Under the pieces are notes generated by a model that was not told the origin of the DNA, did no database searches, and saw nothing but the letters and a program-made list of their open reading frames with translations. Below, piece after piece: positions 4,874 to 27,796 of a DNA stretch of 35,190 nt. The stretch is from an uncultured Halieaceae bacterium. GTDB lineage: Bacteria; Pseudomonadota; Gammaproteobacteria; Pseudomonadales; Halieaceae. How positions within the stretch are numbered: the stretch's first letter is position 1; every line of letters starts with the position of its first letter. A program made the position numbers and the translations under genes. The DNA is taken from NCBI GenBank assembly GCA_913048495.1, contig CAJWWA010000004.1, forward strand, positions 1 through 35,190, given 5' to 3'.

Positions 4874-4892
4874 AGTAATGCGAATCATTATT
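4874..4892. promoter_or_regulatory. Fur box
   Basis: AGTAATGCGAATCATTATT matches 14 of 19 positions of the classic Fur box (GATAATGATAATCATTATC), including an unbroken AATCATTAT core. It covers the -10 box of the lipoprotein gene's promoter, the usual arrangement for repression by iron-loaded Fur. It lies 71 bases before that gene's start and 163 bases before the plus-strand gene at 5056, so the first is the likelier target. Confidence 0.7.
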
Positions 4893-4915
4893 GTTCGTGT
4901 TTCTTGTTTTTGCAA
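4887..4915 (-). promoter_or_regulatory. Sigma-70-like promoter of the DUF6607 lipoprotein gene
   Basis: On the minus strand TTGCAA (4915-4910) and AATAAT (4892-4887) are 17 bases apart, matching 4/6 and 5/6 of the -35 and -10 consensus. It sits in the only AT-rich patch of the neighbourhood and overlaps the Fur box. The predicted leader is about 75 bases. Confidence 0.6.
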
Positions 4916-5055
4916 CAGATCCTGTTCCTTCCCTGCAGGCTGTCTGCGGCTGACCGCCCGCGGGCGGGATGAACGCGACAAAACACTGACAGGGGTCATG
5001 CGCCGGCCGGGGGCGCCGTGGGAAAATAGCGCTCCGCCATGCACAGGGAGGACCT

Positions 5056-5475
5056 ATGGACAGCTTCGCGAAGAAGTATCTCGTCGGCCTCGTCGCCGTG
5101 GTCATCATCGCCACCGGGTATTGGTACCTGAACCGGGACACCCGGGTTGGGGACATCAACGCCATGCTCGCGGCGGACGCGGAGCTCGCCGGGTACCCCT
5201 ACCCCTTCCGCGTAAAGAGCCTTGCCAACGGCGTCGCGATCATGGGCAGCCCGCGCTCCGCGGAAGTGCCGGTCATGCAGTTCCTGCGCACCGCCTTCCC
5301 GGCCCTGCGCAACACCCCGGTCGATGACCCGGCCATGATGGCCGCCCAGGACACGCTGGTGGACAAGCAGTCGCGGGCCGCGAAGCTGGTCGAGGCCGAA
5401 GAGGATGTCCGCGCCGTGCGCTGGGAACTCGACGAGCGCTGGTACAACGAGCACGGGGTGTTCCTGAACCGCTGA
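5056..5475 (+). CDS. Small membrane-anchored protein of unknown function
   Basis: 139 residues; I do not recognise the family. An N-terminal helix (about residues 8-25) preceded by KKY looks like an uncleaved inner-membrane anchor, leaving a charged domain of about 110 residues probably in the periplasm. The C-terminal half is rich in Glu, Ala and Arg and likely helical. AGGGAGG five bases before the ATG is a strong ribosome site, so the gene is very likely real. It stands alone, between the Fur-controlled lipoprotein gene (divergent) and the ATP-grasp gene (convergent, 58 bases away). Confidence 0.75.
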   Translation: MDSFAKKYLVGLVAVVIIATGYWYLNRDTRVGDINAMLAADAELAGYPYPFRVKSLANGVAIMGSPRSAEVPVMQFLRTAFPALRNTPVDDPAMMAAQDTLVDKQSRAAKLVEAEEDVRAVRWELDERWYNEHGVFLNR

Positions 5476-5533
5476 CGCCGGTTAGCACTCAACGTGCAAT
5501 TACGGGGCGACCCCGGGGAATCGCGGCTTTCCG

Positions 5534-6487
5534 TCAGCTGCCCGCAAAGGCCTCCATGGCCCAGGCCACGCGCTCGGCAGGTTCCGGCAGGCGCCGGTCG
5601 CCGAGGGCCTCGACGCGGCGCAGCCGCGGCAGCAGGCCACAGCCGTTGGCGATCTGGATCGCGAGGCCCGGCCGGGCATTGAGCTCAAGGAGCAGCGGGC
5701 CCTGCTGCCGGTCCAGCACCAGGTCCACCCCCAGGTAGCCGAGGCCGGTCATGTCGTGGCAGCGTGCTGCCAGCACCAGCAGTTCGCGCCAGCCCGGGAC
5801 GCGGATGGCGTCCAGCGGACGCCCGGTGTCCGGGTGCAGGGTCAGCGGCTGGCCGAACTGCACGGCGCGCAGGCAGCGGCCGCTGTCCAGCGCGAGGCCC
5901 ACGCCCACCGCGCCCTGGTGCAGGTTGGCCTTGCCGTCCGAGTCGTGGGTGGACAGGCGCAGCATGGCCATGACCGGGTAGCCCCGGAAGACGACCACCC
6001 GGATGTCCGGCACCCCCTCGAAGGAGTAACCGCTGAAGCAGTCGTCGGCACTGATCAGGTCCTCCACCAGCACCGCGTCCGGGTTGCCGCCGAGGGAGTA
6101 GAGCCCCGCGAGCGTGTTGGACAGGTGTCGCTGCAGGTCGGCGAGGCCGACCCGGACCCCGGAGGCCTTGACCCAGGCGTCCTCGTCCCGGCGCTGGATC
6201 ACCCAGATACCCTTGCCCCCCGACCCCTTGGCGGGCTTCATGGCGAAGCCCTCGAGGGCCGCCAGCCGGCTGCCGACGCGCTGTACCTGGTGCTGCGCTC
6301 GGAGCACCAGGCGCAGGGAGGGCGTTGGCACGCCGTACTCCTCCGCCAGGAGCTTGGTGCGCAGCTTGTCGTCTACCAGCGGGAAGCGGGAGCGCTCATT
6401 GTAGCGCTGGATGAAGGCGAGGTTGCGCGCGTTCATGCCGAGCATGCCGTAGCGCTCGAGACGCTGCGGCGTGACCCAGCGCCTCAC
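5534..6487 (-). CDS. RimK-like ATP-grasp (alpha-L-glutamate ligase-like) protein
   Basis: 317 residues. An ATP-grasp ligase fold: the nucleotide loop KPAKGSGGKG (84-93), DIRVVVFRG (161-169) and the metal-binding ELNARPG (268-274) are all intact, so it should be catalytically active. Such enzymes join an amino acid or peptide to a carboxylate; the substrate is not known for this subfamily. The GTG start at 6487 overlaps the stop of the upstream membrane gene by GTGA; the open frame runs much further upstream, but that part only mirrors the membrane gene. It is the last gene of the retropepsin / membrane transglutaminase-like / ATP-grasp trio. Confidence 0.88.
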   Translation of the reverse strand: MRRWVTPQRLERYGMLGMNARNLAFIQRYNERSRFPLVDDKLRTKLLAEEYGVPTPSLRLVLRAQHQVQRVGSRLAALEGFAMKPAKGSGGKGIWVIQRRDEDAWVKASGVRVGLADLQRHLSNTLAGLYSLGGNPDAVLVEDLISADDCFSGYSFEGVPDIRVVVFRGYPVMAMLRLSTHDSDGKANLHQGAVGVGLALDSGRCLRAVQFGQPLTLHPDTGRPLDAIRVPGWRELLVLAARCHDMTGLGYLGVDLVLDRQQGPLLLELNARPGLAIQIANGCGLLPRLRRVEALGDRRLPEPAERVAWAMEAFAGS

Positions 6488-8001
6488 CGCCAATCCTCCT
6501 CGATGGCGTGGAAGCGGCGCAACTCCGACAGCTTGTAGCCCGTGTACTGACCCATGGCGAGGATCGCCGCGAGCAGCACGAGGTTCAGCTCCGGGAAGTT
6601 GAAGGTGAGGTGCTGTACGAGGGGCCAGCGCATGAGTGCGTAGGCCGCTATCGCCACGACGAGACTGCCGGTGCCCTGGATGAGAACCTCGCGCACGCCC
6701 TCCTCCTCCCAGAGAATGCTCATGCGCTCGATGGTCCAGGCGATGATGATCATCGGGAAGAAGGTGATGATCATGCCGGTGCTGTAGCCGAGCTGGTAGC
6801 CGAGGATACTCAGCGCCGAGATGATGAAGATCACCAGCACGATGAGCGTCGCGATACGGGCGACCAGCAGCAGGTTCAGCCGCGACAGGTAGCCGCGCAT
6901 CATGAGGCCGAGGGCGACGACGGAAATGAAGCTCGCCAGTCCCGGCAGCAGGGAGGTCTGCAGGAACGCCAGGGCAATGAGAATGGGCATGAAAGTGCCT
7001 GCGGTGCGCACCCCCACGAGGACCCGCATGAACACCACGACCATGGCGCCCAGCGGCAGCAGCAGGAGCATCTTGAACATGCCCTGCTCCTCGATGGGCA
7101 GGCTGTGCAGCCCCACCTTGTAGAAGGCGCTGTCGCCGGCCGCCGCCCGGGCCAGCGTTTCCGCCGGCACGGACTGGCGCAGCATGGAGAAGTTCACGCG
7201 GGACTGGCGGGCGCCGCTCACGTCGATGAGCGAGCGGCCCTTGCGGTGCCAGAGGAGCAGGTCTTCCGGCACGCCGGCGGCCCCGGTCTGGGGGTCGATC
7301 AGCGTCCACTCTCCGGCGTGGAAGACCTCCACCATGGGCTTCAGGTCCTGGCGCCGGCGCGCATCCTCCAGCTGCAGCGCGAGCACCTGCCGCGCCGGGA
7401 CGTCGGCATCATTGAGCAGCTTGTTGAGGAGCGCGGCGCGGGACTCGGCCTGGTTCAGCAGGAGCGCGGCATTCTGGTCGCCCTGGCGGGTCGCCATCAG
7501 CTTGACCAGCTCCCGCGCCAGGCTCAGCGGGTCGCTGCTCGTCTCACCGGCCCGGGCGAGGAGTTCCGCTGCGGCGGTGCCCTGCACCTCGCTCCAGAAC
7601 ACCGGCTCCGCCCTCGGCAAGCGCGGCGGCGGCGCCGCGGGCGCGCGCGGGCGCGGCAGGAACTGCGCCGAATAATAGAGAGACTGCGGCCCGCTGGCCT
7701 CGCGCCGGGTCCACTCGGCGCGCCGGTCTCCCCCGTCCTCCACGATGGAGAAACCGAAGCCCGGCGAGGCGGCCTGCTCCTGGGTCACGGAGAACTGCGG
7801 CAGGTCCTCGGGAACGGAGAGGCTGACCGAGACCGGGCCACCGAGGGCGACGAGGTCCACCCGCGCTTCCACCTGCCACACGGAGCGCTCCTGCCCGGGC
7901 AGGAAAGGCGTGCCCGTTTCGAGGAAGCGCAGGATGGCGACAAGAATGCCGGAGGCGGCAAGCAGCGCCACCGTGGCGAAGAAGGTGGCGCGGGGGTTCA
8001 C
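6484..8001 (-). CDS. Inactive transglutaminase fused to a multi-helix membrane domain
   Basis: 505 residues, matching the family 'inactive transglutaminase fused to 7 transmembrane helices' (also called UUP1 family). One N-terminal helix (7-27) is followed by a periplasmic part whose segment about 150-260 has the transglutaminase layout, including VPARQVLAL and IDPQTG. The catalytic Cys position (around 176-178, GDQNAAL) has no Cys, and the usual HAW is KPM (221-223), so it cannot be a normal transglutaminase and may bind a peptide instead. About six or seven membrane helices fill 310-490. The GTG start overlaps the retropepsin gene stop by 4 bases, and the ATP-grasp gene follows with the same overlap. 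Confidence 0.88.
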   Translation of the reverse strand: MNPRATFFATVALLAASGILVAILRFLETGTPFLPGQERSVWQVEARVDLVALGGPVSVSLSVPEDLPQFSVTQEQAASPGFGFSIVEDGGDRRAEWTRREASGPQSLYYSAQFLPRPRAPAAPPPRLPRAEPVFWSEVQGTAAAELLARAGETSSDPLSLARELVKLMATRQGDQNAALLLNQAESRAALLNKLLNDADVPARQVLALQLEDARRRQDLKPMVEVFHAGEWTLIDPQTGAAGVPEDLLLWHRKGRSLIDVSGARQSRVNFSMLRQSVPAETLARAAAGDSAFYKVGLHSLPIEEQGMFKMLLLLPLGAMVVVFMRVLVGVRTAGTFMPILIALAFLQTSLLPGLASFISVVALGLMMRGYLSRLNLLLVARIATLIVLVIFIISALSILGYQLGYSTGMIITFFPMIIIAWTIERMSILWEEEGVREVLIQGTGSLVVAIAAYALMRWPLVQHLTFNFPELNLVLLAAILAMGQYTGYKLSELRRFHAIEEDWR

Positions 8002-8795
8002 TGTGCGGGCGGCTCGGGCGCGCGGTAGGGTGCGATATTGGACTGGCCCACGTCGACGACCATCAGGTCCTTGAGAATGTTGCGGCCGACGAGCATCTGG
8101 AAGTCCAGGTGGCTGCGGTCGCTGAGCGTGAACTCGGCCATCTGCCGAACCTCGCCTAGGACAATGCCGAGCTCGATGACCGCTCGCCGCTCCGCCTCCT
8201 CGGACGTGGACTGGAGAATACGCACGACGCGGGCCACCGGTCGCTCCAGGGTCAGGGGCTCACCGGTCTCGGGATGGACGATATCGAAGCGGACCCATTC
8301 ATCACCATCGCGCTCGAACTCGCGGATGTTGCGCGCGTCGAGGGAGGCCGTCTCGGCACCGGTATCGATGCGGGCCGGGAGTGCCAGCTGAAGGTCTTCA
8401 ACCCAGACGTCCTCACGGCGGCCGACCAGCTGCTTGCCCTCCAGGCCGTCGGCGTTCTCCGCGGGTTCGCAAGCGGACGCCGGCACCAGCGCCGGCGTCG
8501 TCTGCTCGGCCGCGACGGACTTCTCCATCGCTTCGAGCATCGCGGGCACACCGGCGAGGCTCGCCTGCAGGGTCGCGACATTGCCGGCCAGCGCCTGCTG
8601 TTCCTCGCGTGCCGCCTCCAGGCCCGTTGAAAGTCCGGCCAGTTCCTCCGCCAGGCGATCGATGCGCTCGCTCACGCCCTGCCGTTCCGGTTCCACCGGC
8701 GGCAGTTGCGCACAGGCCGTCGTCAGTGTCAGCAGGACCACCACCCAGGGCAGCCGGGAACGCGCCGGCTGCTTCCCGGAGTGCGATGGCCTCAT
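7998..8795 (-). CDS. Retropepsin-like lipoprotein (PF05618, 'ATP-dependent zinc protease' family)
   Basis: 265 residues. A signal peptide ends at LTTAC with Cys28 as probable lipid site, then a predicted coiled coil (about 40-100), then a C-terminal domain with ARIDTGAETASLDA (141-154). DTGA (144-147) is the aspartic-peptidase active-site motif, and LVGRNIL (235-241) resembles the second conserved retropepsin segment. The older family name, zinc protease, is therefore doubtful. It is probably a membrane-tethered periplasmic endopeptidase, active as a dimer if retropepsin-like. ATG 8795 is chosen because the signal peptide follows it; the open frame extends to 8921, but that would overlap the diguanylate cyclase gene. 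The membrane gene follows with a 4-base overlap. Confidence 0.83.
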   Translation of the reverse strand: MRPSHSGKQPARSRLPWVVVLLTLTTACAQLPPVEPERQGVSERIDRLAEELAGLSTGLEAAREEQQALAGNVATLQASLAGVPAMLEAMEKSVAAEQTTPALVPASACEPAENADGLEGKQLVGRREDVWVEDLQLALPARIDTGAETASLDARNIREFERDGDEWVRFDIVHPETGEPLTLERPVARVVRILQSTSEEAERRAVIELGIVLGEVRQMAEFTLSDRSHLDFQMLVGRNILKDLMVVDVGQSNIAPYRAPEPPAQ

Positions 8796-8826
8796 GCTGT
8801 TCCAAAGGATCAGGCGCAAAACAGAC

Positions 8827-10347
8827 TCAGGCGACCGCCTTGACCCGAGTGCCCTCGAGCTTCTTGGCGTCGTACATGGCTTCATCTGCGCGCGCCAGGG
8901 CGGTCTCCATGGTGTCGTCACCGTCGAGTTGCGTCACCCCGCAGGAGATAGAAACGTCGAGCGGACGGCCGTTGTCATTGAAACCGGCATGCGCGACTTC
9001 CTGGCAGACGCTGCGGGCGAAGATCTCCGCCCCGGAGAGCGGCGTATCCGGCAGCAGCAGCAGGAACTCGTCGCCCCCGTATCGGCATACGATATCGCTC
9101 GCGCGGGAGCGCTCGTGAAGGATGTCGGCGACCTTCATGAGCACGAGATCTCCGGCCGCATGGCCGTAGGTATCGTTGATTTCCTTGAACTTGTTGCAAT
9201 CGACGAACACGATCGACAGCGGCGCCGCGGCCCGCTTCCAGCGCGCATAGAGCTCGGGCGAGCGCTCCTCGTACCCGGCCCGGTTGTAAACCCCCGTGAG
9301 CGGGTCCTTCAGCGCGAGGTCCGCCTTGTCGCGGATCTCGTTGCGCAGGCTGTCCGCCTCCTGCTCCAGCGTTTCCACCTGCTGGGAAAGTTCCTTCACC
9401 CTTGCCTGGGCCGCCTCGTACTGCTCCCGCTCCTCGGCGACGTGCCGGGCGAGGCGCTCGGTGATGCGCAGCAACGAGCCGTGTACCGCCTCCTGGTCGA
9501 CTCCGTGGGTCACGGCCTCGGACAGTCCGCTGACATCGGCGCCGACATCGACTTCCAGGGCCTCCGACCGCTCCAGGGAACGCCGTCCCTCGTCCGCCAC
9601 GGAAGTGACGGCGTCTTCAAAGGACTCGAGCCGCTCGCGCAGGCTGCCGAGGAAACTGGATGCGTGCGCGCGCTCCTGCCGAATGCGATCGTCGATGCGA
9701 TCGATCTCCCGGGTGACCTCCTTGAGGAGGGTCTCCGCCTGCTCCAGCGCCTGCAGCCCCTCGAGGCGCTGCCGGAGCTCGCCCCCGCGGGACGGCGAGC
9801 CGTTGAGTACGTCGATGTGATCGACAAGGCGCGTGAGCAGCTCGACGAAGAGCATCACCGAGCGGTCCCGCTGCCCTTCCTCGCGGTCGGTCCGCCGGCG
9901 CCCGAAGAGCCCGCGGGCCCCGCTCTCGCCGCGGCCGCGGGCCGCGACCTCGATCAGCGCCTCCGCCGAGGCCTTCAGCAGCGAGCTCAGGGCGGCCTGG
10001 CGCTCCAGCGCACTCTGGCCTGCGGCGATCCGGCGTACGAGGCCGTCGAAGTGCTGCTGGTCCTCGGAGCGTACCGGCATGCGCTTGACGAGCTGGCTGA
10101 GCCCGGAGACATCCAGGGCGCCCGGCATGGCATCGCTGCTATCGACACTGACGCCCGTCGCCGAAAGCACATAGTGGGCCAGTTCCTCGGAGGCTTCACC
10201 GAGCCGGTTGCCGTCAGCCCCCTCACGCACGAGACCCCGGATCTTGCCCAGCACCGCATCCACGTCGGCGTCTACGCCCTCGGCCATGCGCAGCAGCCTG
10301 AGGGTCAATCGCGCAAGCGCCTCGTCCCGATCCATGGTTGATGTCAT
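8827..10347 (-). CDS. Soluble diguanylate cyclase with long helical N-terminus
   Basis: 506 residues with no membrane helix. Residues 1-340 are mostly helical, with a likely coiled coil at 302-340, and match no sensor domain I recognise. The GGDEF domain starts near 345 with DPLTGVYNR, has FVDCNKFKEIND (metal-binding Asp383), the active-site GGDEF (424-428), and RASD (415-418) as a correctly spaced RxxD inhibitory site. It should make c-di-GMP. ATG 10347 is directly preceded by AAGGG with no spacing, so ATG 10335 (4 residues shorter) is also plausible. It lies 53 bases after the FlhB-like gene and 31 bases before the retropepsin gene on the same strand, so co-transcription with flagellar genes is possible. 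Confidence 0.88.
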   Translation of the reverse strand: MTSTMDRDEALARLTLRLLRMAEGVDADVDAVLGKIRGLVREGADGNRLGEASEELAHYVLSATGVSVDSSDAMPGALDVSGLSQLVKRMPVRSEDQQHFDGLVRRIAAGQSALERQAALSSLLKASAEALIEVAARGRGESGARGLFGRRRTDREEGQRDRSVMLFVELLTRLVDHIDVLNGSPSRGGELRQRLEGLQALEQAETLLKEVTREIDRIDDRIRQERAHASSFLGSLRERLESFEDAVTSVADEGRRSLERSEALEVDVGADVSGLSEAVTHGVDQEAVHGSLLRITERLARHVAEEREQYEAAQARVKELSQQVETLEQEADSLRNEIRDKADLALKDPLTGVYNRAGYEERSPELYARWKRAAAPLSIVFVDCNKFKEINDTYGHAAGDLVLMKVADILHERSRASDIVCRYGGDEFLLLLPDTPLSGAEIFARSVCQEVAHAGFNDNGRPLDVSISCGVTQLDGDDTMETALARADEAMYDAKKLEGTRVKAVA

Positions 10348-10400: not shown

Positions 10401-10682
10401 TCAGGCGCGCTCGGACAGCGCCATTTCCAGTCGGTAGACGAACGCCAACACCTCCGCCACGGCAACATACAATGTTTCCGGTATTTCGTCACCCAGCGGG
10501 ATTTCGCAGAGCAGCGTCGCGAGCCGCTCATCCTCGTGCAGGGGCACGCCGTGCGCTTCGGCAATGGCGCGGATGCGCTGCGCGACATCACCCTCCCCAC
10601 TCGCGACCACCCGCGGGGCGCCGACACCCGCGTAGACCAGTGCCGCGGACCGGGGCGGTACGCTGTGGCGGTCGTCGTTCAC
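10401..10682 (-). CDS. FlhB C-terminal-domain-only protein (FlhX/YlqH-like)
   Basis: 93 residues. It aligns with the C-terminal cytoplasmic fragment of FlhB downstream of the NPTH cleavage site: compare its AALVYAGVGAPRVVA, IPLGDEIPETLY and EVLAFVY with the matching parts of the FlhB encoded at 20811-21974. It has no membrane helices and no NPTH motif, so it resembles a ready-cut FlhB_CC fragment. In other bacteria such proteins are thought to substitute for or compete with FlhB_CC at the export gate. The GTG start overlaps the upstream FliK-like gene by 4 bases, so both parts of the substrate-specificity switch are made together. Confidence 0.87.
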   Translation of the reverse strand: MNDDRHSVPPRSAALVYAGVGAPRVVASGEGDVAQRIRAIAEAHGVPLHEDERLATLLCEIPLGDEIPETLYVAVAEVLAFVYRLEMALSERA

Positions 10683-11767
10683 GCCTTCCAGCCCGTCACG
10701 GCGCCGCCGATGCTCTGCTCCCCGGCTGCGCCCTGCTCCACCCCCAGCCGCACCTCGAGACCCTCGAGGGCGAGACCCCGCGCCTTCATCGCATCGCCGA
10801 GCTGATGCAGGCTGCCGCCCAGCAGGGCACCGCTGTCCGGCTTATCCACCTCAATGCTCACCCGCGCCTGCGCCGGCCCGGCGTGCACGTGTACAACCAG
10901 CGGGCCCAGCCTAGGCAGATCCAAGGACAGTACCGCGTGCCAGCGACGGGTGTGCTCGTCGCCGTCGGGCCGTTCTCGCGCCTCCTCCTCGTTGATGGAC
11001 AGGCGGGCGCTGTGCATACCCTCGCCGAGGAAGAAAGGCAGATCGATGCGCCAGCTGCGCCCCGCCCCCGCATCCCCGGGCAGGGAGGCGAGCTGGTTGA
11101 GCTGCAGGGCACCGAGCATGGCCTCGAGTTCGCGTGCGAAGGCGCCCGTCCCCCGAGCAGAGGACGCTTCCTCGCCCGCTCCGCCAGCGCCGCGCAGTAC
11201 CAGGAGCAGGCGCTGCACGAGGACCTTGAGATCGCGCTCCGCCGACTGGCCGCCGCTCGCGAGCAGGCGAGCCTCGGAAAACGTACCGGATTGCTCGACG
11301 GCCCGCTTCAGGTTCTTCGCCTCGCCCAGCTGCGAGAGCCGGGGCAGCAGGTCCAGCAGCTGGCCGATGAGCGCCTGGGCATTGCCCGGGAGCCGCGCGA
11401 TGCCCTCGGCACCCAGGGCCTGCAGGGCGGAAACGAAGGAGGGTGCGCCCGGCGTGCTTGCGGCGCGAACCGCGCCGCCCGTTTCCACGGCCTGTCCCGC
11501 CGGCGGCGGCACGGCGCGCAGCACCCGCAGCACCGGCACGGGTTCGAGTTGCTTCACCTCGAGCAGCAGCCGCGTACCCGGCTGCACGGGCACATCGGTG
11601 GCGGCAGTCAACTGCTGCCCGCCCACGCGCAGCACCAGTTCACCGCTCGGCCGCTGCGAGGCAACCAGTGCATTGAGCACCTGGCCGACCTGCCAGTTGC
11701 GCAGCCAGATGCCGAAGTTCTTCTGGTCGACCCGGGTTGCAGTGAGCGCCAGCTGGACGTCTTCCAC
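10679..11767 (-). CDS. Second FliK-like hook-length control domain protein
   Basis: 362 residues. The N-terminal part has a beta-rich VLNALV...GELVLRVGG segment and VKQLEPVPVLRV, as in FliK-like proteins of the YlqG type. The C-terminal Flg_hook domain (about 240-345) contains WHAVLSLDLPRLGPLVVHVH and ARVSIEV. It differs clearly from the canonical FliK at 26421-27761 and lacks that protein's long Ala/Pro/Gly-rich middle. The GTG start at 11767 has GGAGGT close upstream. It pairs with the FlhB C-domain gene through a 4-base overlap. It may act on a substrate switch, but that is inference from family and context. Confidence 0.8.
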   Translation of the reverse strand: MEDVQLALTATRVDQKNFGIWLRNWQVGQVLNALVASQRPSGELVLRVGGQQLTAATDVPVQPGTRLLLEVKQLEPVPVLRVLRAVPPPAGQAVETGGAVRAASTPGAPSFVSALQALGAEGIARLPGNAQALIGQLLDLLPRLSQLGEAKNLKRAVEQSGTFSEARLLASGGQSAERDLKVLVQRLLLVLRGAGGAGEEASSARGTGAFARELEAMLGALQLNQLASLPGDAGAGRSWRIDLPFFLGEGMHSARLSINEEEARERPDGDEHTRRWHAVLSLDLPRLGPLVVHVHAGPAQARVSIEVDKPDSGALLGGSLHQLGDAMKARGLALEGLEVRLGVEQGAAGEQSIGGAVTGWKA

Positions 11768-11890: not shown

Positions 11891-12655
11891 ATGGATCTGG
11901 CCACGCTCCTCGGCCTGGTGGGCGCCATCGGCGTCGTCATGGCGGCGATTCTCACCGGCGGCTCTGCCATCGTCTTCTTCAATATCCCCTCGATTCTCAT
12001 CGTGCTCTGGGGCACGGTGCTCGTGGTCATGGTCAAGTTCTCACTGGCGCAGTTCTTCGGCGCCTTCCGCGTTGCCGCGAGAGCCTTCGTCTTCCGCCTC
12101 GATGATCCCGAGGCGCTCATCGCGCAGATCGTCGAGCTGTCCAACATCGCGCGGAAAGAGGGCATGCTGGCGCTCGAGAACCAGGAGATCGACAACGAGT
12201 TTCTCGACGACGGCATCAAGATGCTCATCGACGGCAACAGCCGGGAGGTCGTCAGTACGGTCATGCACAAGGACCTGCAGCAGACCATCGAACGGCACAA
12301 CTGGGGCATGAAAGTCTTCAGCGCGACCGGCGACGTCGCGCCGGCCATGGGCATGATCGGTACCCTGATCGGCCTGGTGCAGATGCTGTCCTCCATGGAC
12401 GACCCCAAGGCGATCGGGCCGGCGATGGCCGTCGCGCTCCTCACGACGCTCTACGGGGCAATGCTCGCCAACATGGTGGCGCTGCCCATCGCCGACAAGC
12501 TGAAGCTGCGCAAGAGCGAGGAGGGACGCATCAAGGCCATGTGCATCGACGGCGTGCTCGCCATCCAGGAGGGCCAGAACCCGCGCATCGTCGAGTCCAT
12601 GCTCAAGGCCTATCTCGAGCCGAAGAAGCGCAACAACGGTGACGGCGAGGAATGA
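11891..12655 (+). CDS. pomA: Flagellar stator protein PomA (sodium-type MotA)
   Basis: 254 residues, the size of Vibrio PomA. Four membrane helices (about 3-22, 29-50, 150-170, 178-198) form the ion channel with PomB. Thr158 in GMIGTLIGL and Thr186 in LTTLYG match the PomA threonines associated with sodium conduction. The cytoplasmic loop has Arg88, Lys89, Glu96 and Glu99, the charged residues that contact FliG. The start at 11891 gives the family N-terminus MDLATLLGLVG; the ribosome site is weak (AAGG 12 bases away). No clear promoter is seen in the 123-base gap shared with the divergent FliK-like gene. It overlaps pomB by ATGA. Confidence 0.94.
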   Translation: MDLATLLGLVGAIGVVMAAILTGGSAIVFFNIPSILIVLWGTVLVVMVKFSLAQFFGAFRVAARAFVFRLDDPEALIAQIVELSNIARKEGMLALENQEIDNEFLDDGIKMLIDGNSREVVSTVMHKDLQQTIERHNWGMKVFSATGDVAPAMGMIGTLIGLVQMLSSMDDPKAIGPAMAVALLTTLYGAMLANMVALPIADKLKLRKSEEGRIKAMCIDGVLAIQEGQNPRIVESMLKAYLEPKKRNNGDGEE

Positions 12656-13575
12656 TCGACTTCGAGGACCAGGAAGAGGAGCAGCAGGGCGCGCCGGCCT
12701 GGATGGCGACCTTTGCCGACCTCATGTCCCTGCTCATGTGTTTCTTCGTTCTCCTTCTCTCCTTCTCGGAGATGGATGTCGAGAAGTACAAGCAGATTGC
12801 CGGCTCCATGAAGCTGGCCTTCGGGGTCCAGAACCGGGTCAAGGTCGACGACATCCCCAAGGGAACCAGCGTGATCGCCCGGGAGTTCAGCCCCGGTAAG
12901 CCGGAGCCGACGATCATGGACACCATCAACCAGGTCACGCAGCAGAATACGGAGAACTCCCTGCAAGTCGGCAACCCCGATGCGCCGCAGCTCGACGAGG
13001 AGCGAACGCGGGAGCTGCTCGAGCAGAAGGTGGAAGCGCTCCTCGAAGAGACGAAGGAAGACGCGGAGGAGCTGCGTGAGATCCTCGCGCAGGAAGTACA
13101 GACCGGGAAGGTCGACATCGAGACCGAAGGGCGGTCCATCATCGTCAGGATCCGCGAGAACGGCTCCTTCCCCTCCGGCTCGGCGACCCTGAACGCCGAC
13201 TTCCTGCCGGTCATGGACCGCCTGCGGGACGCGCTCGTGGAGATTCCGGGCACGATCGCCGTCGAGGGCCACACGGACGATGTACCGATCAGCGGCGGCC
13301 GCTTCCGCTCGAACTGGGATCTCTCGGCGAGCCGGGCACTGTCCGTGACCCACGAGCTGCTAAAGAGCGGCGAGCTGTCCAATGACCGCCTCATGGTCGT
13401 CGGCTACGCCGAGACCGAGCCTTTCACGAACAACGAGAGCCCCGAGGGACGCGCGATGAACCGGCGGGTGGAACTGGTGATCAGGCAGTCGCTGGAGGAC
13501 AGCCGCCAGGATGACCTGGATGTCATCCGCGAGGCCAACTCGGACGTCGTCGACGTGCTGGAGCTGGATCGATGA
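12652..13575 (+). CDS. pomB: Flagellar stator protein PomB (sodium-type MotB)
   Basis: 307 residues. One membrane helix (about 18-38) in the context WMATFADLMSLLMCFF carries the ion-binding Asp23. The plug/linker region, close to Vibrio PomB in sequence, follows, including FGVQNRVKVDDIPKGTS. An acidic helical stretch (about 110-145) leads to an OmpA-like peptidoglycan-binding domain (about 160-290, with VEGHTDDVPI and NWDLSASRA). It anchors the stator to the cell wall. It overlaps pomA upstream and the PilZ gene downstream by 4 bases each, so all three are probably translated from one message. Confidence 0.95.
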   Translation: MIDFEDQEEEQQGAPAWMATFADLMSLLMCFFVLLLSFSEMDVEKYKQIAGSMKLAFGVQNRVKVDDIPKGTSVIAREFSPGKPEPTIMDTINQVTQQNTENSLQVGNPDAPQLDEERTRELLEQKVEALLEETKEDAEELREILAQEVQTGKVDIETEGRSIIVRIRENGSFPSGSATLNADFLPVMDRLRDALVEIPGTIAVEGHTDDVPISGGRFRSNWDLSASRALSVTHELLKSGELSNDRLMVVGYAETEPFTNNESPEGRAMNRRVELVIRQSLEDSRQDDLDVIREANSDVVDVLELDR

Positions 13576-14156
13576 GCGGGGGCGCTGACCGGAGCCAGGG
13601 CGAGCGCCGCCAGTTCTATCGCATCGCGGACCGGATCAAGCTGCGCTACGAGACCATCGAAGCGGGCTCGGAAGGTACCGGGCAGGCAGGCGGGGCCATC
13701 GGCCTGAGTACAGGGCAGCTGCTGGGCGAACTCGACGACGAGCTCGCGGAATGCATCAACCTGCTCGGGCGTGAAGACCCCCTGGCCGCGCGTGCGCTGG
13801 GCCTGCTGAACCGCAAGGTATCCCTGCTCGCCACCCTGAGCCTCTCCCGGGACGGGGAGGAAGCCGCCAGCTACAAGGAAATGCTGGTCAGCCTGAGCGG
13901 CTGCGGCCTTGCCTTCGAGGCCGGCGAGCAGCTGCCGCCGGGCACGGCCCTGAAGCTCTGGCTGATCCTGCAACCCTCGCAGCTGGAGGTGAGCATCACC
14001 GGCCGGGTGGTCGATGCGGCGCCTGCCGGCCCCCCCGGGGAGTCACGCTTCTGGACGCGGGTAGACTTCGATGACGAGGCCTGGGCTCGCGAGGAGCTCA
14101 TCCGCCACGTGGTGCAGAAGCAGGGCCTGCTGGTCGCGGAGCGCTCGGAGCACTAA
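13572..14156 (+). CDS. PilZ-domain c-di-GMP receptor coupled to pomAB
   Basis: 194 residues. The N-terminal RxxxR motif is present as Arg13-QFY-Arg17 (ERRQFYRI), and the second PilZ motif appears as SLSGCG (107-112), where Ser replaces the usual Asp/Asn of [D/N]xSxxG. A helical insertion of about 75 residues separates the two motifs, so this is a split PilZ domain. The C-terminal part (TRVDFDDEAWAREELIRHVV) is typical of PilZ proteins ending in a helix. It starts with ATGA overlapping pomB. Its place suggests it tunes the PomAB stator in response to c-di-GMP, like YcgR or FlgZ; that role is inferred from context. Confidence 0.82.
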   Translation: MSGGADRSQGERRQFYRIADRIKLRYETIEAGSEGTGQAGGAIGLSTGQLLGELDDELAECINLLGREDPLAARALGLLNRKVSLLATLSLSRDGEEAASYKEMLVSLSGCGLAFEAGEQLPPGTALKLWLILQPSQLEVSITGRVVDAAPAGPPGESRFWTRVDFDDEAWAREELIRHVVQKQGLLVAERSEH

Positions 14157-14384: not shown

Positions 14385-15245
14385 TCACCCTGCGGCGCGA
14401 TTCCGCCCCGCCGCGAGCATGATGCCCGGCAGGCGCTCCCCGGAGGCCGCGGATGACATGACCACCAGGACGACGCGACGGTTCCGCGCCCTGCCCTCCG
14501 GCGTGTCATTGCCTGCGATGGGCCGGTGCTCACCGTAGCCGGTGGCGGAGAGGCGCTCCGGGGCGATGCCGTTCTCCTCGAACAGCCGGACCACCGTCGC
14601 CGCCCGCGCCGCGGACAGCTCCCAGTTCGAGGGGAAGCGCCCGTTCCTGATCGGGACATTGTCTGTAAAACCCTCGACGTTGACCAGGTTGGGCACATCG
14701 CGCAGCACGCTCGCAAAATTCTCGAGCACCGGCACGGCATCGGAGAGCAGCACCCGGCTCCCCGAGGCGAAGAGCAGCTGCGCCTTGATCTCGATCTCGA
14801 GCCAGTAGTCGTTGCGCTCGACCTTGATGAGTTCCTCGTCGATGAAATCGGACACGCGGTTCTCGACCGCCCCGGCAAGGCGATCGATCTCGCCCCGTGA
14901 CTCGGCGGCGGCGTCACCGGGCTCTGCCCTAGACAGCCCCCGGTTCAGAAGCTCGGGCTTGAGCGGAATCATCGCCTGCGAGGAGCCGGTATCGGGCGCG
15001 CCGGCGGACCAGGCGTCGGGCATCTCCACCCCGCCGGAACTCTCCCGCTTGAGCGCCAGCAGCGGCGTGTTCAGGGCGCGGACGATGGAATCGGAGAGCA
15101 CACGGTAGCTGCCCTCCCGCGCCGTGGAAATCGAGTACATGACCACGAAGAAGGCGAACAGGAGCGTGATGAAGTCGGCATAGGAGACCAGCCAGCGCTC
15201 GTGGTTGTCGCTGTAGTCGAGCTGCCGGCGGCGGCGCCCCTTCAC
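14385..15245 (-). CDS. motD: Flagellar motor protein MotD (MotB family)
   Basis: 286 residues. A short basic N-terminus, then one membrane helix (about 20-40) in SYADFITLLFAFFVVMYS with ion-binding Asp24, then a periplasmic OmpA-like domain (about 150-270; VEGFTDNVPI, NWELSAARA). It pairs with MotC as the second stator. The GTG start overlaps the motC stop (GTGA). The C-terminus ends soon after the OmpA-like domain. Confidence 0.93.
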   Translation of the reverse strand: MKGRRRRQLDYSDNHERWLVSYADFITLLFAFFVVMYSISTAREGSYRVLSDSIVRALNTPLLALKRESSGGVEMPDAWSAGAPDTGSSQAMIPLKPELLNRGLSRAEPGDAAAESRGEIDRLAGAVENRVSDFIDEELIKVERNDYWLEIEIKAQLLFASGSRVLLSDAVPVLENFASVLRDVPNLVNVEGFTDNVPIRNGRFPSNWELSAARAATVVRLFEENGIAPERLSATGYGEHRPIAGNDTPEGRARNRRVVLVVMSSAASGERLPGIMLAAGRNRAAG

Positions 15246-16015
15246 CCCAGATAGCCCTCGAGCTTGCTCTGAATCGCGCGCGGGTTCTCGCCCTCGGCGA
15301 TCATGATGACGCCGTCCAGCATCATTTCCTGGTACTGCAGCTGTTCACCGTAGAGCGCCTTGAGCTTGTTGGCGACAGGCAGGAACAGGAGATTGGCGAA
15401 GCCGACACCGTAGATGGTTGCCACGAACGCCACCGCGATGCCCGCTCCGAGGGCAGAGGGATCGGACAGGTTTCTCATGACGTGGATCAGCCCGATGACC
15501 GCGCCGAGGATGCCCACCGTCGGCGAGTACCCCCCCATGGACTCGAACACGCGCGCGCCGCGCTCCTCGCGGGCGAGCTTGCTGTCGATCTCCACTTCCA
15601 TGATGGCGCGGATCTCGTCGGGCTCGACGCCGTCCACGAGGAGGGTCAGGCCCTTGCGGAGGAAGGGGTCGGCCACCCCCTGTGCCTGCTTCTCGAGGGA
15701 AAGGAGCCCGTCGCGGCGCACGCGCCGGCTCCACTCGAGCACGTCGTTGATCAGGGGCTGCCGGTCGAAGCGCGGCGCGCGCAGCACCCACTTGAGCCGG
15801 CGCATGGCGAAGAGGAAATCCCCGAGGGGCGTCTGCACCAGCACCGCGCCGAGTGTGCCGCCGACGACGATGACGAAGGCGGTAAGCTGCAGGAGGCTGG
15901 TGATGCGCCCGCCCTCCAGCATGTTGCCGCCGACGATGGCACCGACCGACAGCGTAACGCCGATGAGCGTGAGGTAGTCGAAGGCCGACCCGGCCGGTTT
16001 GCCCTTGCGCGCCAT
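15242..16015 (-). CDS. motC: Flagellar motor protein MotC (MotA family)
   Basis: 257 residues with four membrane helices. The channel segment reads PTVGILGAVIGL; Ala172 sits where PomA has Thr158, while Thr200 matches PomA Thr186. Ala at the first position is what proton-driven MotA has, so this stator is probably proton type. ATG 16015 lies 7 bases after the fliA stop. AAGG sits right against the ATG, and no better in-frame start is seen. In Pseudomonas motCD is separated from fliA by chemotaxis genes; here it follows directly. Confidence 0.93.
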   Translation of the reverse strand: MARKGKPAGSAFDYLTLIGVTLSVGAIVGGNMLEGGRITSLLQLTAFVIVVGGTLGAVLVQTPLGDFLFAMRRLKWVLRAPRFDRQPLINDVLEWSRRVRRDGLLSLEKQAQGVADPFLRKGLTLLVDGVEPDEIRAIMEVEIDSKLAREERGARVFESMGGYSPTVGILGAVIGLIHVMRNLSDPSALGAGIAVAFVATIYGVGFANLLFLPVANKLKALYGEQLQYQEMMLDGVIMIAEGENPRAIQSKLEGYLG

Positions 16016-18704: not shown

Positions 18705-20824
18705 TATTGACCTCCTTCAGCGGTCGCCGTCGCCGCGGGGGCGGCACTGCCGATCGTTGCCACGACCCTGATTGACTTGTTGGGGGGAATCTCCTCGTAG
18801 GCGAGGATGTAGAAGTTCTCCATGCGCCCGCGCAGCAGGCGCGACAGGAAGGCCCGCAGGCCGCTGGACACCAGCAGCACGGGCGTGCGGCCCTCGGCCT
18901 CGAGCTTCTTCGAGCCGTCCATGACCTGGCGGATCACGCTGTCGACGAGCGTCGGCTCGAGGCCCCCGGCCCCGCCCTGCAGCGAGTTGTTGAGGATCTG
19001 CTCCAGCTGCGAGTCCAGCACCATCACCGGCATCTCCCTCGCCGTGCCGTTCACGGCCTGGAAGATCGCCGGCCCGAGCGCCACCCGGACCCGCGCGGTC
19101 AGTTCCTCGACATCCTTCTCCTTGCCCGCCTGGGCGGCGAGCGCCTCGGCGATGGTGCGCATGTCGCGCACGGGAACACCCTCCTCGAGCAGGTTCTGCA
19201 GCACGCGGGTCACCTCCGCCAGGCTCATGGTCGCAGGCACCAGGTTCTCGACCAGCTTGGGCGAGGAGCGGGCCAGCTTGTCCAGCAGCTGCTGCGTGCC
19301 GTCCTGGCCGAGCAGCTCCCGGGCATGGTTCTTGAGCAGCTGGCTCAGGTGCGTGGCGATGACCGTGCTGCTGTCGACCACGGTGTAGCCCTTGGACTGG
19401 GCGTCATCGCGCTGCGACGGGTCGATCCATACCGCCTCGAGACCGAAGGTGGGGTCCCGGGTGGCCACGCCCTCGAGTTCGCCGAAGACCTGCCCGGGGT
19501 TGATCGCCAGCTCGCGACCGGGGAACACCTCGCCCTCGCCGACGACGACGTCGTGCAGGCTGATCCGGTAGCTGTTGGGTGACAGGTCGAGGTTGTCGCG
19601 GATGTGCACCGAGTGCACGAGGAAGCCGAGCTCCTGGGACAGCTTCTTCCGCACCCCCTTGATCCGCGCGAGGAGATCCCCGCCCTGGTTGCGGTCGACC
19701 AGGGAGATAAGCCGGTAGCCGACCTCCAGGCCGATCTCGTCCACATCACTGACATCGTCCCAGCTCAGCTCCGCCGGTTCCGACGGCCGCGCTTCGCGCT
19801 CCTCCACGGCCGCCGCGACCGGTGGCGCCTGGCTGCGCTGCCAGCGCAGCCAGGCGACGCTGCCGAGGATCCCTGCAATGCTGAGGAAGACCAGGTTGGG
19901 CATTCCCGGCACGAGCCCCATGAGGCCGATGCTGCCCGCCGCGACGATCAGCACCCGGGGGTTGTCGGTCAGCTGGCTGGCCACCGCCTCGCCCATGTCC
20001 TGGGCGCCGGACATGCGCGTCACGATGATCGCCGCCGCGGTCGACAGGAGCATGGACGGTATCTGGGCGACCAGGCCGTCACCGATGGTCAGCAGGGTGT
20101 AGTTCTGCGCCGCCTGGGCCGCGCTGAGATCGTGCTGCAGGGTGCCGATCGCGAAGCCGCCGATGATATTGATGAACAGGATCAGGATGCCGGCAACGGC
20201 GTCGCCGCGGACGAACTTGCTCGCACCGTCCATGGCCCCGTAGAAGTCCGCCTCGCGACCGACCTCCTCCCGCCGGGCGAGGGCGTCCTCCTGGGAAATG
20301 AGGCCGGCGTTCAGGTCGGCATCGATCGCCATCTGCTTGCCGGGCATCGCGTCCAGGGTGAAGCGGGCGGTCACCTCGGAGATACGGCCGGCGCCCTTGG
20401 TGACGACCACGAAATTGATCACCACCAGGATGGTGAACAGCACCAGGCCGACCGCGTAGCTGCCGCCGACCACGAATTCGCCGAAGGCGCGGATCACGTT
20501 ACCCGCGGCGTCCGTGCCCGTGTGGCCCTGCAGCAGGACCACGCGCGTGGACGCCACGTTGAGACCGAGGCGCAGCAGGGTCGCGATGAGCAGCACCGTG
20601 GGAAAGACTGCGAACTCCAGGGGGCGGGTCGCGTAGACGGCGGCGAGCAGCACGATGATGGCGAGGGCGATATTGAAGGTGAACAGCAGGTCCAGCGCGA
20701 GCGGCGGCAGCGGCAGGACAATCATCACCAGCATCAGCAGCAGCACGAGCGGCGTGCCCACGCCGCTCAGCACCATGCCGATACCCGGCGCTGTCGCGCC
20801 CTCGACCGCGTCACTGGTCGCCAT
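18704..20824 (-). CDS. flhA: Flagellar export gate protein FlhA
   Basis: 706 residues. About eight N-terminal membrane helices, the FHIPEP signature (ISEVTARFTLDAMPGKQM), then a long cytoplasmic domain that binds chaperone-substrate complexes and forms the export ring (about 340-706). I choose ATG 20824 over ATG 20839 because GAGGAG lies 7 bases before it; the longer frame would add five residues. It overlaps the end of flhB by 14 bases and flhF by one base. Confidence 0.96.
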   Translation of the reverse strand: MATSDAVEGATAPGIGMVLSGVGTPLVLLLMLVMIVLPLPPLALDLLFTFNIALAIIVLLAAVYATRPLEFAVFPTVLLIATLLRLGLNVASTRVVLLQGHTGTDAAGNVIRAFGEFVVGGSYAVGLVLFTILVVINFVVVTKGAGRISEVTARFTLDAMPGKQMAIDADLNAGLISQEDALARREEVGREADFYGAMDGASKFVRGDAVAGILILFINIIGGFAIGTLQHDLSAAQAAQNYTLLTIGDGLVAQIPSMLLSTAAAIIVTRMSGAQDMGEAVASQLTDNPRVLIVAAGSIGLMGLVPGMPNLVFLSIAGILGSVAWLRWQRSQAPPVAAAVEEREARPSEPAELSWDDVSDVDEIGLEVGYRLISLVDRNQGGDLLARIKGVRKKLSQELGFLVHSVHIRDNLDLSPNSYRISLHDVVVGEGEVFPGRELAINPGQVFGELEGVATRDPTFGLEAVWIDPSQRDDAQSKGYTVVDSSTVIATHLSQLLKNHARELLGQDGTQQLLDKLARSSPKLVENLVPATMSLAEVTRVLQNLLEEGVPVRDMRTIAEALAAQAGKEKDVEELTARVRVALGPAIFQAVNGTAREMPVMVLDSQLEQILNNSLQGGAGGLEPTLVDSVIRQVMDGSKKLEAEGRTPVLLVSSGLRAFLSRLLRGRMENFYILAYEEIPPNKSIRVVATIGSAAPAATATAEGGQ

Positions 20825-21974
20825 CGTCGGACTCCTCATCCGTCGTGTCAGTCGCCGCCCACTCCTCGGGGACCTCGAGGTCCACCGGTGGCGGCACGTA
20901 GTCTGTCGGCCCCGCGCGGCGCAGCTGCAGCAGGTAGGCGAGCACGCGCGCTACAGCCAGGTAGAGTTCGCGCGGGATCTCCTGCCCGATCTCCGTCGTC
21001 GCGTAGAGCGCCCGGGCCAGGGGCGGCGCCTCGAACACGGGCACTTCGGCGGCGCGGGCAACGCTGCGGATCTGCAGCGCGACGAGATCCCTGCCCCGGG
21101 CGACGACCGTCGGCGCCCCGGCCCCGGCCTCGTCGTAGCGCAGCGCAATGGCAACGTGCGTGGGGTTGGTGATCACCACGTCCGCCTTCGGTACGTCCTG
21201 CATCATGCGGCGCTGGGCCACGTCCCGCTGCAGCTCGCGGATGCGCTGGCGCACCTCCGGGCGGCCGTCGGTCTCTTTCAGCTCCTCGCGCACTTCCTGC
21301 CGGGTCATGCGCAACTGACGGTTGAAGTTCCAGAGTTCGAAGGGGACGTCGAGGGCGGCGATGAAGACCAGCGTTCCGGTCAGCAGCAGGAGCCCCCAGA
21401 GCAGCACCTGCACCGCCGCGCGGCTGGCATAGCCGGGCTCGTAGGCACCCAGGGTCAGGATGTCGCGCTCGAAGAGCACGAACACGACCAGCGTGGCACC
21501 GAGCAGCAGCAGGAACTTGCCCAGCGCCTTCAGCATCTCGACCAGCCCCTTTGCCGAGAAGACCCGGGCGATGCCCTTCACCGGGTTGAGTTTCTCCAGG
21601 CTGAAGGCGATCGCCTCGCCGCTGAAGGTCCAGCCACCCATGGCCAGGGGGCCGGCGAAGGCGGCGACGATGGCCACCGCGAACAGCGGCAGGAGGAGCA
21701 GGAGCGCCTGCGCCAGCATGTAGCCCAGGTGCACGGGCAGTCGCTCACTGGCGAAGACCAGTTCCCGGCTCACCGAGAAGCCGTCGGCGAGCAGCGCCTG
21801 GAAACCCTGCACGAGCGTGCCGCCGAGCACCAGCAACCCGAGGGACAGCGCGAGCAGCGACAGCAGCGTGTTGAGCTCTTTCGAACGCGGCACCTGGCCG
21901 CGGCGCCGGGCCTCCTGCTTGCGGCGCTCTGTCGGCTGTTCTGTGCGTTCCTGACCGGTCTGCTCCTCTGCCAT
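20811..21974 (-). CDS. flhB: Flagellar export switch protein FlhB
   Basis: 387 residues. Basic N-terminus (TEQPTERRKQEARRRGQV), four membrane helices (about 35-56, 88-110, 145-168, 187-208) and the cytoplasmic autocleavage site NPTH (270-273), so substrate switching should be normal. An acidic tail (EESDDGD) follows the conserved domain. FlhB interacts with FliK to change export from hook to filament substrates. It lies 9 bases after fliR and overlaps flhA. Confidence 0.96.
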   Translation of the reverse strand: MAEEQTGQERTEQPTERRKQEARRRGQVPRSKELNTLLSLLALSLGLLVLGGTLVQGFQALLADGFSVSRELVFASERLPVHLGYMLAQALLLLLPLFAVAIVAAFAGPLAMGGWTFSGEAIAFSLEKLNPVKGIARVFSAKGLVEMLKALGKFLLLLGATLVVFVLFERDILTLGAYEPGYASRAAVQVLLWGLLLLTGTLVFIAALDVPFELWNFNRQLRMTRQEVREELKETDGRPEVRQRIRELQRDVAQRRMMQDVPKADVVITNPTHVAIALRYDEAGAGAPTVVARGRDLVALQIRSVARAAEVPVFEAPPLARALYATTEIGQEIPRELYLAVARVLAYLLQLRRAGPTDYVPPPVDLEVPEEWAATDTTDEESDDGDQ

Positions 21975-26420: not shown

Positions 26421-27761
26421 TCAGGCAAAGGTATCGAGGAGCCCATCGACCCGCAGCGCCAGCGACCCGGCGTCCCGTCCCTGCGGCGCTTCTGCGGCGG
26501 CGAGGCCGGACGGATCGCTGCCGCCGGGGGTGCCGGGCAGGCCGTCGCGCTCACCCCCATCGCCCCGGGCATGCTGCTGTGGTTCCCGGTAGCTCACATC
26601 GCCCTCGGCGAGATCGAGCCCGCTCTGCTGCAGCAGTTCCCGCAGCCGGGGCAGGGACTGTTCGATGGCATCGCGGGCATGGGCCGTGTCCGTGACGAAC
26701 ATCACCCGGGCCTGATCACCATCGGTGTTGATGGTGACGTGCAGGCGGCCGAGTTCCGCAGGATGTAGCTGCACCGTGGCCTCGCGCGACGCCGTGCCGA
26801 CGAGGATCCTGACCTGGCCGGCCAGACCCTCGGCAAAATCGGCCTGCGGGCCCGACAGGTTGTAGGCCAGCGCCGTCGGCCGCGTCGCGGCGCCGCTGTC
26901 GGCAGACGAATGCGCGGCAGACAGGTGCGACAGCGCGGGGAGCGCCGCGCTGTCCGCCCGCTGGGACGCGGCGCCCTCGCCAGCCTGCGCGGCGGCGACC
27001 GGGCTACCCGGCAGCGGCGACCGCCGGGTGTCGGCGTCCGGTGATTCCGCTGCCGCCGCCATGAGGTCGCGGGCCGCCACGGCAGCCGAGGGTCCGGGTG
27101 CCGGCGGTGCGTCGGGGGCGCCCGGCGCGCCGGCACCCGGGCGGATGCCGGGACGGCTGCTCGCACTGTCCGCCTCGCCCGCGGCCATACCGGTCGCGGT
27201 GAATGGGAAGGGGATTCGCGCTTCACCTTCTGCTACCGGGTCCGCGCCCGCGGGCAGGGGGACCGCCCGCGAGGGATCGGCCGCAGGCAGCGCCGGTCCA
27301 CGCGTCAACGGGCCGGCCTGGGAAGCCGACTGCCCATCGGCAGCGTTGCCGACTACGGCTCTATCACCAATCACCGTACCGGGGGCGGCAAGGGCGATAG
27401 AGAGGTCCGGAGCCGCGCGCGACGATGCCGCCAGGCGTTCCTGTACCGAAGAGTTCGGCGGCGCCGCTTCTGCAGGCAGGGCGGCTACCGCTGCCGGCGT
27501 TACCGGGCCCGCCACCGGTACGGTGATGACCAGCGCCTCCAGCGGGCCCTCCGCCGGCGGCAAGGGGCTGCCGTCGGACGGCAGGCCCTTGCCGCCGGCG
27601 TTGGCCTGTGTGCCGGCGGCAACCCGGAGTCCCGCTAGCAGGCCGGCAAAGGGATCGGCGGGCGCCTCGCCCGCCGGGCGCCGCGGCGCCGCGCTGTCAG
27701 CGGCAGCGCTCTCGCCGACGGAAACGGCGGGCCCGACGGTCAGGGGCAGCTGTGGCAGCAT
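26421..27761 (-). CDS. fliK: Flagellar hook-length control protein FliK
   Basis: 446 residues. Long low-complexity Ala/Pro/Gly-rich ruler region (about 1-300), then the C-terminal Flg_hook domain (about 310-395) with EATVQLHPAELGRLHVTI and DQARVMFVT, then a Gln/Gly-rich tail. It is exported to measure the hook and triggers FlhB switching. I prefer ATG 27761, which has GGAAG five bases upstream; the in-frame TTG at 27776 is also possible. It has its own sigma-54 element in the 71-base gap after fliJ. Confidence 0.9.
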   Translation of the reverse strand: MLPQLPLTVGPAVSVGESAAADSAAPRRPAGEAPADPFAGLLAGLRVAAGTQANAGGKGLPSDGSPLPPAEGPLEALVITVPVAGPVTPAAVAALPAEAAPPNSSVQERLAASSRAAPDLSIALAAPGTVIGDRAVVGNAADGQSASQAGPLTRGPALPAADPSRAVPLPAGADPVAEGEARIPFPFTATGMAAGEADSASSRPGIRPGAGAPGAPDAPPAPGPSAAVAARDLMAAAAESPDADTRRSPLPGSPVAAAQAGEGAASQRADSAALPALSHLSAAHSSADSGAATRPTALAYNLSGPQADFAEGLAGQVRILVGTASREATVQLHPAELGRLHVTINTDGDQARVMFVTDTAHARDAIEQSLPRLRELLQQSGLDLAEGDVSYREPQQHARGDGGERDGLPGTPGGSDPSGLAAAEAPQGRDAGSLALRVDGLLDTFA

Positions 27762-27796
27762 TGGGACTTCCGTCAATGAAACGTCGGGAAGGAATC

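Follow-up and report, generated by a model that had tools for sequence, protein, structure and literature searches.

The window analysed here, a stretch of 35,190 nucleotides from an uncultured Halieaceae bacterium (contig CAJWWA010000004.1), carries a gene for a second FliK-like protein, fliK2, directly followed by fhlB, which encodes a free FlhB C-terminal domain (Table 1). An earlier note, made from the sequence alone, had described a pair formed by a FliK-like protein and a free C-domain of FlhB, in a window that also holds a full fliK and flhB. Both statements are borne out. FliK2 matched PF02120 (Flg_hook) over residues 270-346 with 47.5 bits (cut-off 29.8), FhlB matched the C-terminal part of PF01312 with 68.2 bits (cut-off 24.4), the two reading frames overlap by GTGA, and the canonical FliK and FlhB scored as listed in Table 1. 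The intact flhB lies about 10 kb and the intact fliK about 15 kb from the pair. Chance reading frames or mis-annotation were ruled out by the family scores and by conservation.

Table 1. Features of the fliK2-fhlB locus and of the canonical genes in the window.
Feature	Position	Strand	Description and basis
fliK2	10679..11767	(-)	362 aa, GTG start; PF02120, FliK2 profile, AlphaFold2
FliK2 residues 24-88, OB-fold-like beta barrel in the place of the ruler	11504..11698	(-)	AlphaFold2, Foldseek
FliK2 residues 92-228, helical middle	11084..11494	(-)	AlphaFold2; conserved columns, 29 FliK2 proteins
FliK2 residues 238-341, switch (T3S4-type) domain	10745..11056	(-)	Foldseek
FliK2 residues 347-362, disordered C-terminal tail ending VTGWKA	10682..10729	(-)	AlphaFold2, family alignment
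GTGA overlap (fhlB start and fliK2 stop)	10679..10682	(-)	Sequence; kept in 26/29 loci
fhlB (free FlhB C-domain)	10401..10682	(-)	93 aa, GTG start; PF01312 C-part, fold, tree
FhlB A22-P23, equivalent to Salmonella FlhB A286-P287 (early-substrate pocket)	10614..10619	(-)	Alignment, conservation
FhlB A76 to L79, equivalent to Salmonella FlhB A341, L344 (pocket)	10446..10457	(-)	Alignment, conservation
GGDEF (diguanylate cyclase) gene	8827-10347	(-)	Starts 53 bp after fhlB
Canonical flhB with NPTH	20811..21974	(-)	PF01312 full length, 402 bits
Canonical fliK, C-terminus LLDTFA	26421..27776	(-)	PF02120, 74.8 bits

The window also encodes flhA, flhF, flhG, fliA, fliF, fliJ, fliL and two motA/motB-like pairs, and fliK2-fhlB sits with motA/motB on one side and the GGDEF gene on the other. 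The first motA/motB-like stator pair (11891-13575, plus strand) was read by eye and is followed by a PilZ-domain gene (13572-14156); the second (14385-16015, minus strand) was confirmed with Pfam. A three-gene set for a sugar-transfer-type ATP-grasp protein, a seven-transmembrane inactive transglutaminase and a putative zinc protease occupies positions 5534-8921 of the minus strand. A second secretion system was ruled out, the host genome encoding a single FlhA. A third PF01312 match in the host genome, on contig C213, is an odd fusion that lacks the C-domain: the 384-residue frame (4883-6037 of locus L080, minus strand) seems to combine a lactate-permease-like start, a middle that matches the FlhB membrane part (PF01312 positions 32-227) and an unrelated C-terminal part. 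This frame is likely an assembly chimera or a contaminant.

FhlB aligns with only positions 264-335 of the 335-position PF01312 profile. As the earlier note had stated, it lacks the membrane part and the NPTH autocleavage site, both of which are present in the FlhB of the window. The best NCBIfam match of FhlB was TIGR00789 (flhB_rel) with 77.9 bits, which is below the curated cut-off of 117.35, so formal membership is not claimed. A single FlhB-like family in PHROGs matched FhlB, and its predicted structure was closest in fold to the cleaved FlhB fragments 3b0z_B and 3b1s_B. In a tree of 103 columns, 60 FhlB proteins (a set spanning Bacillota, Desulfobacterota, Planctomycetota and Hydrogenedentota as well) were split by a 100/99 branch from 28 FlhB C-domains, all from Gammaproteobacteria; H. 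pylori FlhX was left out of this tree. FhlB thus groups with other free C-domains, apart from FlhB. Because FhlB is a separate lineage, an origin of the pair by recent truncation or duplication of the window's own flhB and fliK was ruled out.

The early-substrate pocket of Salmonella FlhB consists of A286, P287, A341 and L344 (PMC9307174). All four residues are present in the window FhlB, and across 109 FhlB proteins the corresponding places held A (93%), P (100%), A (100%) and I or L (100%), where the last two figures are biased for 80 of the 109 proteins by a search seeded on that stretch, and an independent set agrees. Besides the NPTH site, FhlB lacks the PPLARALY segment of FlhB, an arginine that every FlhB in the sample has, and two residues in the loop after YD. 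Deletion of this whole loop from Salmonella FlhB abolished secretion (PMC3640470). Given these losses and the Salmonella result, FhlB may not be fully equal to the C-terminal fragment of FlhB (FlhB-CC). FhlB is not just a clipped FlhB. It would be a stand-alone equivalent of an already cleaved FlhB-CC, with a putative capacity to replace that fragment in export.

FliK2 of the window matched the FliK2 family profile with an E-value of 7.2e-79. A PDB sequence search with FliK2 gave no match, and no PHROGs family matched it. In the AlphaFold2 model (mean pLDDT 83.9) an OB-like barrel is followed by a helical middle, the switch domain and, at the C-terminus, a disordered tail. The top Foldseek match was the switch domain of PscP (5cuk; probability 1.00, E-value 0.011), and the C-terminal domain of FliK (2rrl) was matched with a probability of 0.90 and an E-value of 0.48. 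The barrel gave partial matches to IF1 (probability 0.98-0.99) and to the PAN N-domain (probability 0.97), with E-values of about 0.1. All of these E-values exceed 0.01, so the fold assignments rest on probability and local TM-score.

The FliK2 and FliK families have a common C-terminal pattern, hydrophobic-hydrophobic-D-x-x-A, with the consensus L(L/V)Dx(K/R)A in FliK2. The D at position -4 is present in 69% of FliK2 proteins, and the window FliK2, with its VTGWKA, is off-motif. The second-last residue is Y or F in 21 of 21 FliK proteins and mostly K, R, T, H or Q in FliK2. It has been proposed that the last five residues of Salmonella FliK act on FlhB-CC (PMC13344023). At the other end of the protein, the N region of the FliK2 family is more hydrophobic than that of the FliK family, and a disorder index built on hydropathy failed to tell the window FliK from FliK2, rating both as ordered. 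In AlphaFold2, with FliK2 alone modelled, the protein is folded throughout and a long disordered N-terminal ruler is absent; the family-level contrast in the N region and this model are the basis for speaking of a missing ruler. Since an OB-like barrel and helices stand in the ruler's place, FliK2 probably does not measure hook length. Secretion through the flagellar gate, a trait that marks the FliK family, is putative for FliK2.

The distribution of the two genes was examined in 276 evenly drawn Gammaproteobacteria genomes, with PF01312 in 156 and PF02120 in 153. A separate FhlB was present in at least 99 of the 153 PF02120-carrying genomes. FliK2, searched with its own profile, was found in 96 of the 99 genomes with a listed FhlB, and it was encoded directly upstream on the same strand in 92. 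Two or more FliK-domain genes were present in 94 of these 99, and a single one in 52 of the 54 genomes without a listed FhlB (Fisher's test for FhlB against a second FliK domain, 2e-32, for related genomes with kinship uncorrected). One of the two exceptions among the 54 (G104) has a readable, divergent FhlB with an upstream FliK2-like frame; the other (G024) shows a weak second match of the FhlB type, and its match to the FliK2 profile contains one stop. Pieces of FliK2 with no listed FhlB occurred in three genomes (G229, G256 and G264), two of the pieces at contig starts, and FhlB with no listed FliK2-profile match in three more (G153, G154 and G241), each with two FliK-domain genes.

The exact four-base overlap of fliK2 and fhlB was seen in 26 of 29 readable loci, window included, when the fhlB start nearest the FliK2 stop was picked. 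The overlap and the adjacency place the pairing far above chance. Where flhB and FhlB shared a contig and were no more than 30 kb apart, FhlB stood on the other strand and downstream of flhB in 45 of 49 cases, with a median distance of 14.5 kb. Judged by PF02120 or by neighbourhood, five genomes and two Methylococcaceae had appeared to carry FhlB without FliK2; the FliK2 profile found a partner in all that were searched, sometimes unlinked to fhlB. In the Methylococcaceae loci L139 and L121 FhlB stands apart from FliK2, in L139 behind a QueF-like gene, with FliK2 elsewhere in the genome. The closed genome of Methylotuvimicrobium keeps both genes 349 kb apart, which argues for a partnership over mere linkage. 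Similar pairs were found outside Gammaproteobacteria, in Bacillota, Desulfobacterota, Planctomycetota and Hydrogenedentota. The fliK2-fhlB pair is a widespread conserved two-gene unit and not an oddity. The pair is less of an exception than the earlier note implied: an operon of P. putida that FleQ activates consists of the same pair (PMC5026340), and a P. aeruginosa record annotates it as well.

Among the matches listed for the 276 genomes, intact FhlB occurred only in genomes with flagellar export genes. Persistence of FhlB without flagella was considered and rejected, the sole two candidates being broken or fragmentary. In the closed genome G031, which has no FlhA and no complete FlhB, fliK2 and fhlB are both broken by repeat copies, near chemotaxis-type genes, and genome G248, which has no FlhA, contains only a C-terminal fragment. 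In G031 one short repeat breaks both genes (locus L076, about 7000-9000), and more copies seem to lie nearby. Genome G127 carries decayed remnants of the pair (locus L078, near C49:41157) despite having FlhA and FlhB, and about a third of the sampled flagellated genomes are without the pair. The pair is therefore dispensable and can be lost without loss of flagella.

Of 46 loci, 11 had a FliA-type promoter-like site scoring at least 10/13 upstream of fliK2, compared with 4.3% of random windows and 1.7% of shuffles; with the threshold at 11/13 the count was 6 of 46 against 0.7%. No FliA-type site was found upstream of the window fliK2. Sigma-54-type promoters were not enriched upstream of fliK2 (10.8 versus 10.5). 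The P. putida operon, pp4328-4329, in which pp4328 stands for FliK2 and pp4329 for FhlB, is activated 1.8-fold by FleQ (PMC5026340).

Several related systems have been described. Helicobacter pylori HP1575, or FlhX, is likewise, by its description, a stand-alone FlhB C-domain without a membrane part that accompanies a full FlhB; unlike it, the fhlB studied here belongs to a two-gene operon with fliK2. The title of Wand 2006, as cited in PMC3040844, presents HP1575 as a 'spare part' for cases where FlhB-CC has been deleted. FlhX is counted among the flagellar export parts of Campylobacterota, Actinobacteria and Leptospira (PMC9321776, PMC10746217, PMC4758666), and a flhX-fliK pair has been named in Nitratiruptor. 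The P. putida operon, like the window pair, consists of a FliK homologue and an FlhB-domain protein (PMC5026340). The P. aeruginosa pair, annotated as FliK and an EscU-YscU-HrcU-family protein, has the same gene order and four-base overlap, and its FhlB is 39.6% identical over 98%; unlike the window pair, it adjoins ccm genes. This P. aeruginosa record (locus L192, NZ_CP133752.1) is labelled a plasmid, the ccm genes look chromosomal, and Mu-like phage genes are near. No mutant phenotype of the P. putida or P. aeruginosa pair was found in the literature searched. The earlier note had also likened the pair to the YlqG/YlqH kind of B. subtilis, a comparison that fits insofar as the FhlB clade includes Bacillota FhlB with an upstream FliK2-type gene, YlqG and YlqH themselves not having been compared. 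No functional study of YlqG/YlqH or of second FliK proteins was found in the literature searched.

Relative to Salmonella, FhlB has the fold and early-substrate pocket residues of FlhB-CC, but it differs from FlhB in its missing membrane domain, cleavage site and PPLARALY and in its shorter loop. FliK2 resembles Salmonella FliK in its predicted switch-domain fold and in the FliK-type tail of its family, and differs in lacking the second-last aromatic residue and, in the model, the disordered ruler. The kind of system is thus already known from FlhX and from the P. putida and P. aeruginosa pairs, and the window pair is another member. In the literature searched, no account was found of a partnership this close to one-to-one, of the retained pocket and tail, or of the absent ruler.

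The flagellar co-occurrence, conserved pocket, switch-domain fold and FliK-type tail make it likely that the pair is a separate substrate-switch module, as the earlier note had proposed from the missing membrane part and NPTH site. In Salmonella the FlhB C-fragment keeps the export gate in early mode, bears the dock for early substrates and depends on FliK for its loss (PMC13344023). With the same dock and fold in free FhlB, and a FliK-type partner without an evident ruler, the best fit is a module that would supply or exchange this fragment. By analogy with HP1575/FlhX, the pair may be a conserved flagellar accessory operon in which FhlB is a spare FlhB-CC and FliK2 its dedicated partner, a reading to which we give about an even chance. 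FhlB would dock on the export gate and offer the early-substrate pocket in trans, as HP1575/FlhX does where FlhB-CC is missing. The switch domain and tail of FliK2 would engage FhlB, or the gate carrying it, and FliK2 would control when FhlB is seated on the gate and when it leaves. Such a module might top up or reset the early-export state where the gate's own FlhB-CC has been lost or has not yet formed. This explanation is favoured by the co-occurrence of FhlB and FliK2, the second FliK-domain gene in most FhlB genomes, the confinement of intact FhlB to genomes with flagellar export genes among the matches listed, the broken pair in the non-flagellated G031, the position of FhlB relative to flhB, the pocket, the likeness of the FhlB model to cleaved FlhB fragments, the switch fold, the tail of the FliK2 family, the FliA-type sites and the HP1575 and P. 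putida precedents. Against it stand the third or so of flagellated genomes that do without the pair, the losses of FhlB, the off-motif tail in the window and the lack of a FliA-type site there. A stronger version takes FhlB as an FlhB-CC that can be exchanged and FliK2 as its dedicated loader or remover. It would make the early-to-late switch resettable in many flagellated Gammaproteobacteria, unlike that of Salmonella; this is offered tentatively, as a possibility of perhaps one in four.

The main rival is a brake acting at the same site, in which a cytoplasmic FhlB-FliK2 complex would absorb early substrates or FliK, or block the gate, so that export is damped or delayed. FhlB has the pocket without the FlhB N-terminal anchor, PPLARALY and part of the loop needed in Salmonella FlhB, and its obligate partner resembles a control protein, two points in favour of a brake. 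In Helicobacter, however, HP1575 acts in support of export, and not as a block, once FlhB-CC has been deleted, going by the title of Wand 2006 (via PMC3040844). A brake is judged unlikely, at a little over one chance in five. FliK2 might instead be an alternative FliK that offers a second setting for hook length or timing and has a switch target of its own in FhlB. Its switch domain and the tail of its family would suit this role, and the second-last-residue difference could set the choice of partner, but the model folded throughout and the more hydrophobic N region speak against it, and we regard it as improbable. A role lying mostly outside flagellar export, such as control of c-di-GMP together with the adjacent GGDEF gene, was suggested by the short distance between that gene and fhlB and by GGDEF homologues near downstream of, or overlapping, fhlB frames in four other loci (L085, L087, L142 and L161). 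Most loci have no GGDEF neighbour, however, and the confinement of intact FhlB to genomes with flagellar export genes, among the matches listed, also argues against this role, which is very improbable. That the pair consists of functionless, degenerate duplicates of flhB and fliK, a reading that the atypical FliK2 tail of the window might invite, has next to no credence given the separate FhlB lineage and the pocket and gene order conserved across many families.

The supply or exchange of FlhB-CC by the fliK2-fhlB pair, if it occurs, would bear on how the export switch is understood. The one-way hook-to-filament export switch of Salmonella has been explained by a FliK-driven loss of the FlhB C-fragment (PMC13344023), and a free copy of this fragment, with a near-obligate FliK-like partner, is found in at least 99 of the 153 sampled Gammaproteobacteria with FliK-domain genes. 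Should free FhlB be able to refill the gate, those bacteria may have a switch that is not one-way; otherwise FhlB is probably a regulator acting at that site. With either outcome, the pair provides a ready genetic handle on a long-studied question, for example in a laboratory strain of P. putida.
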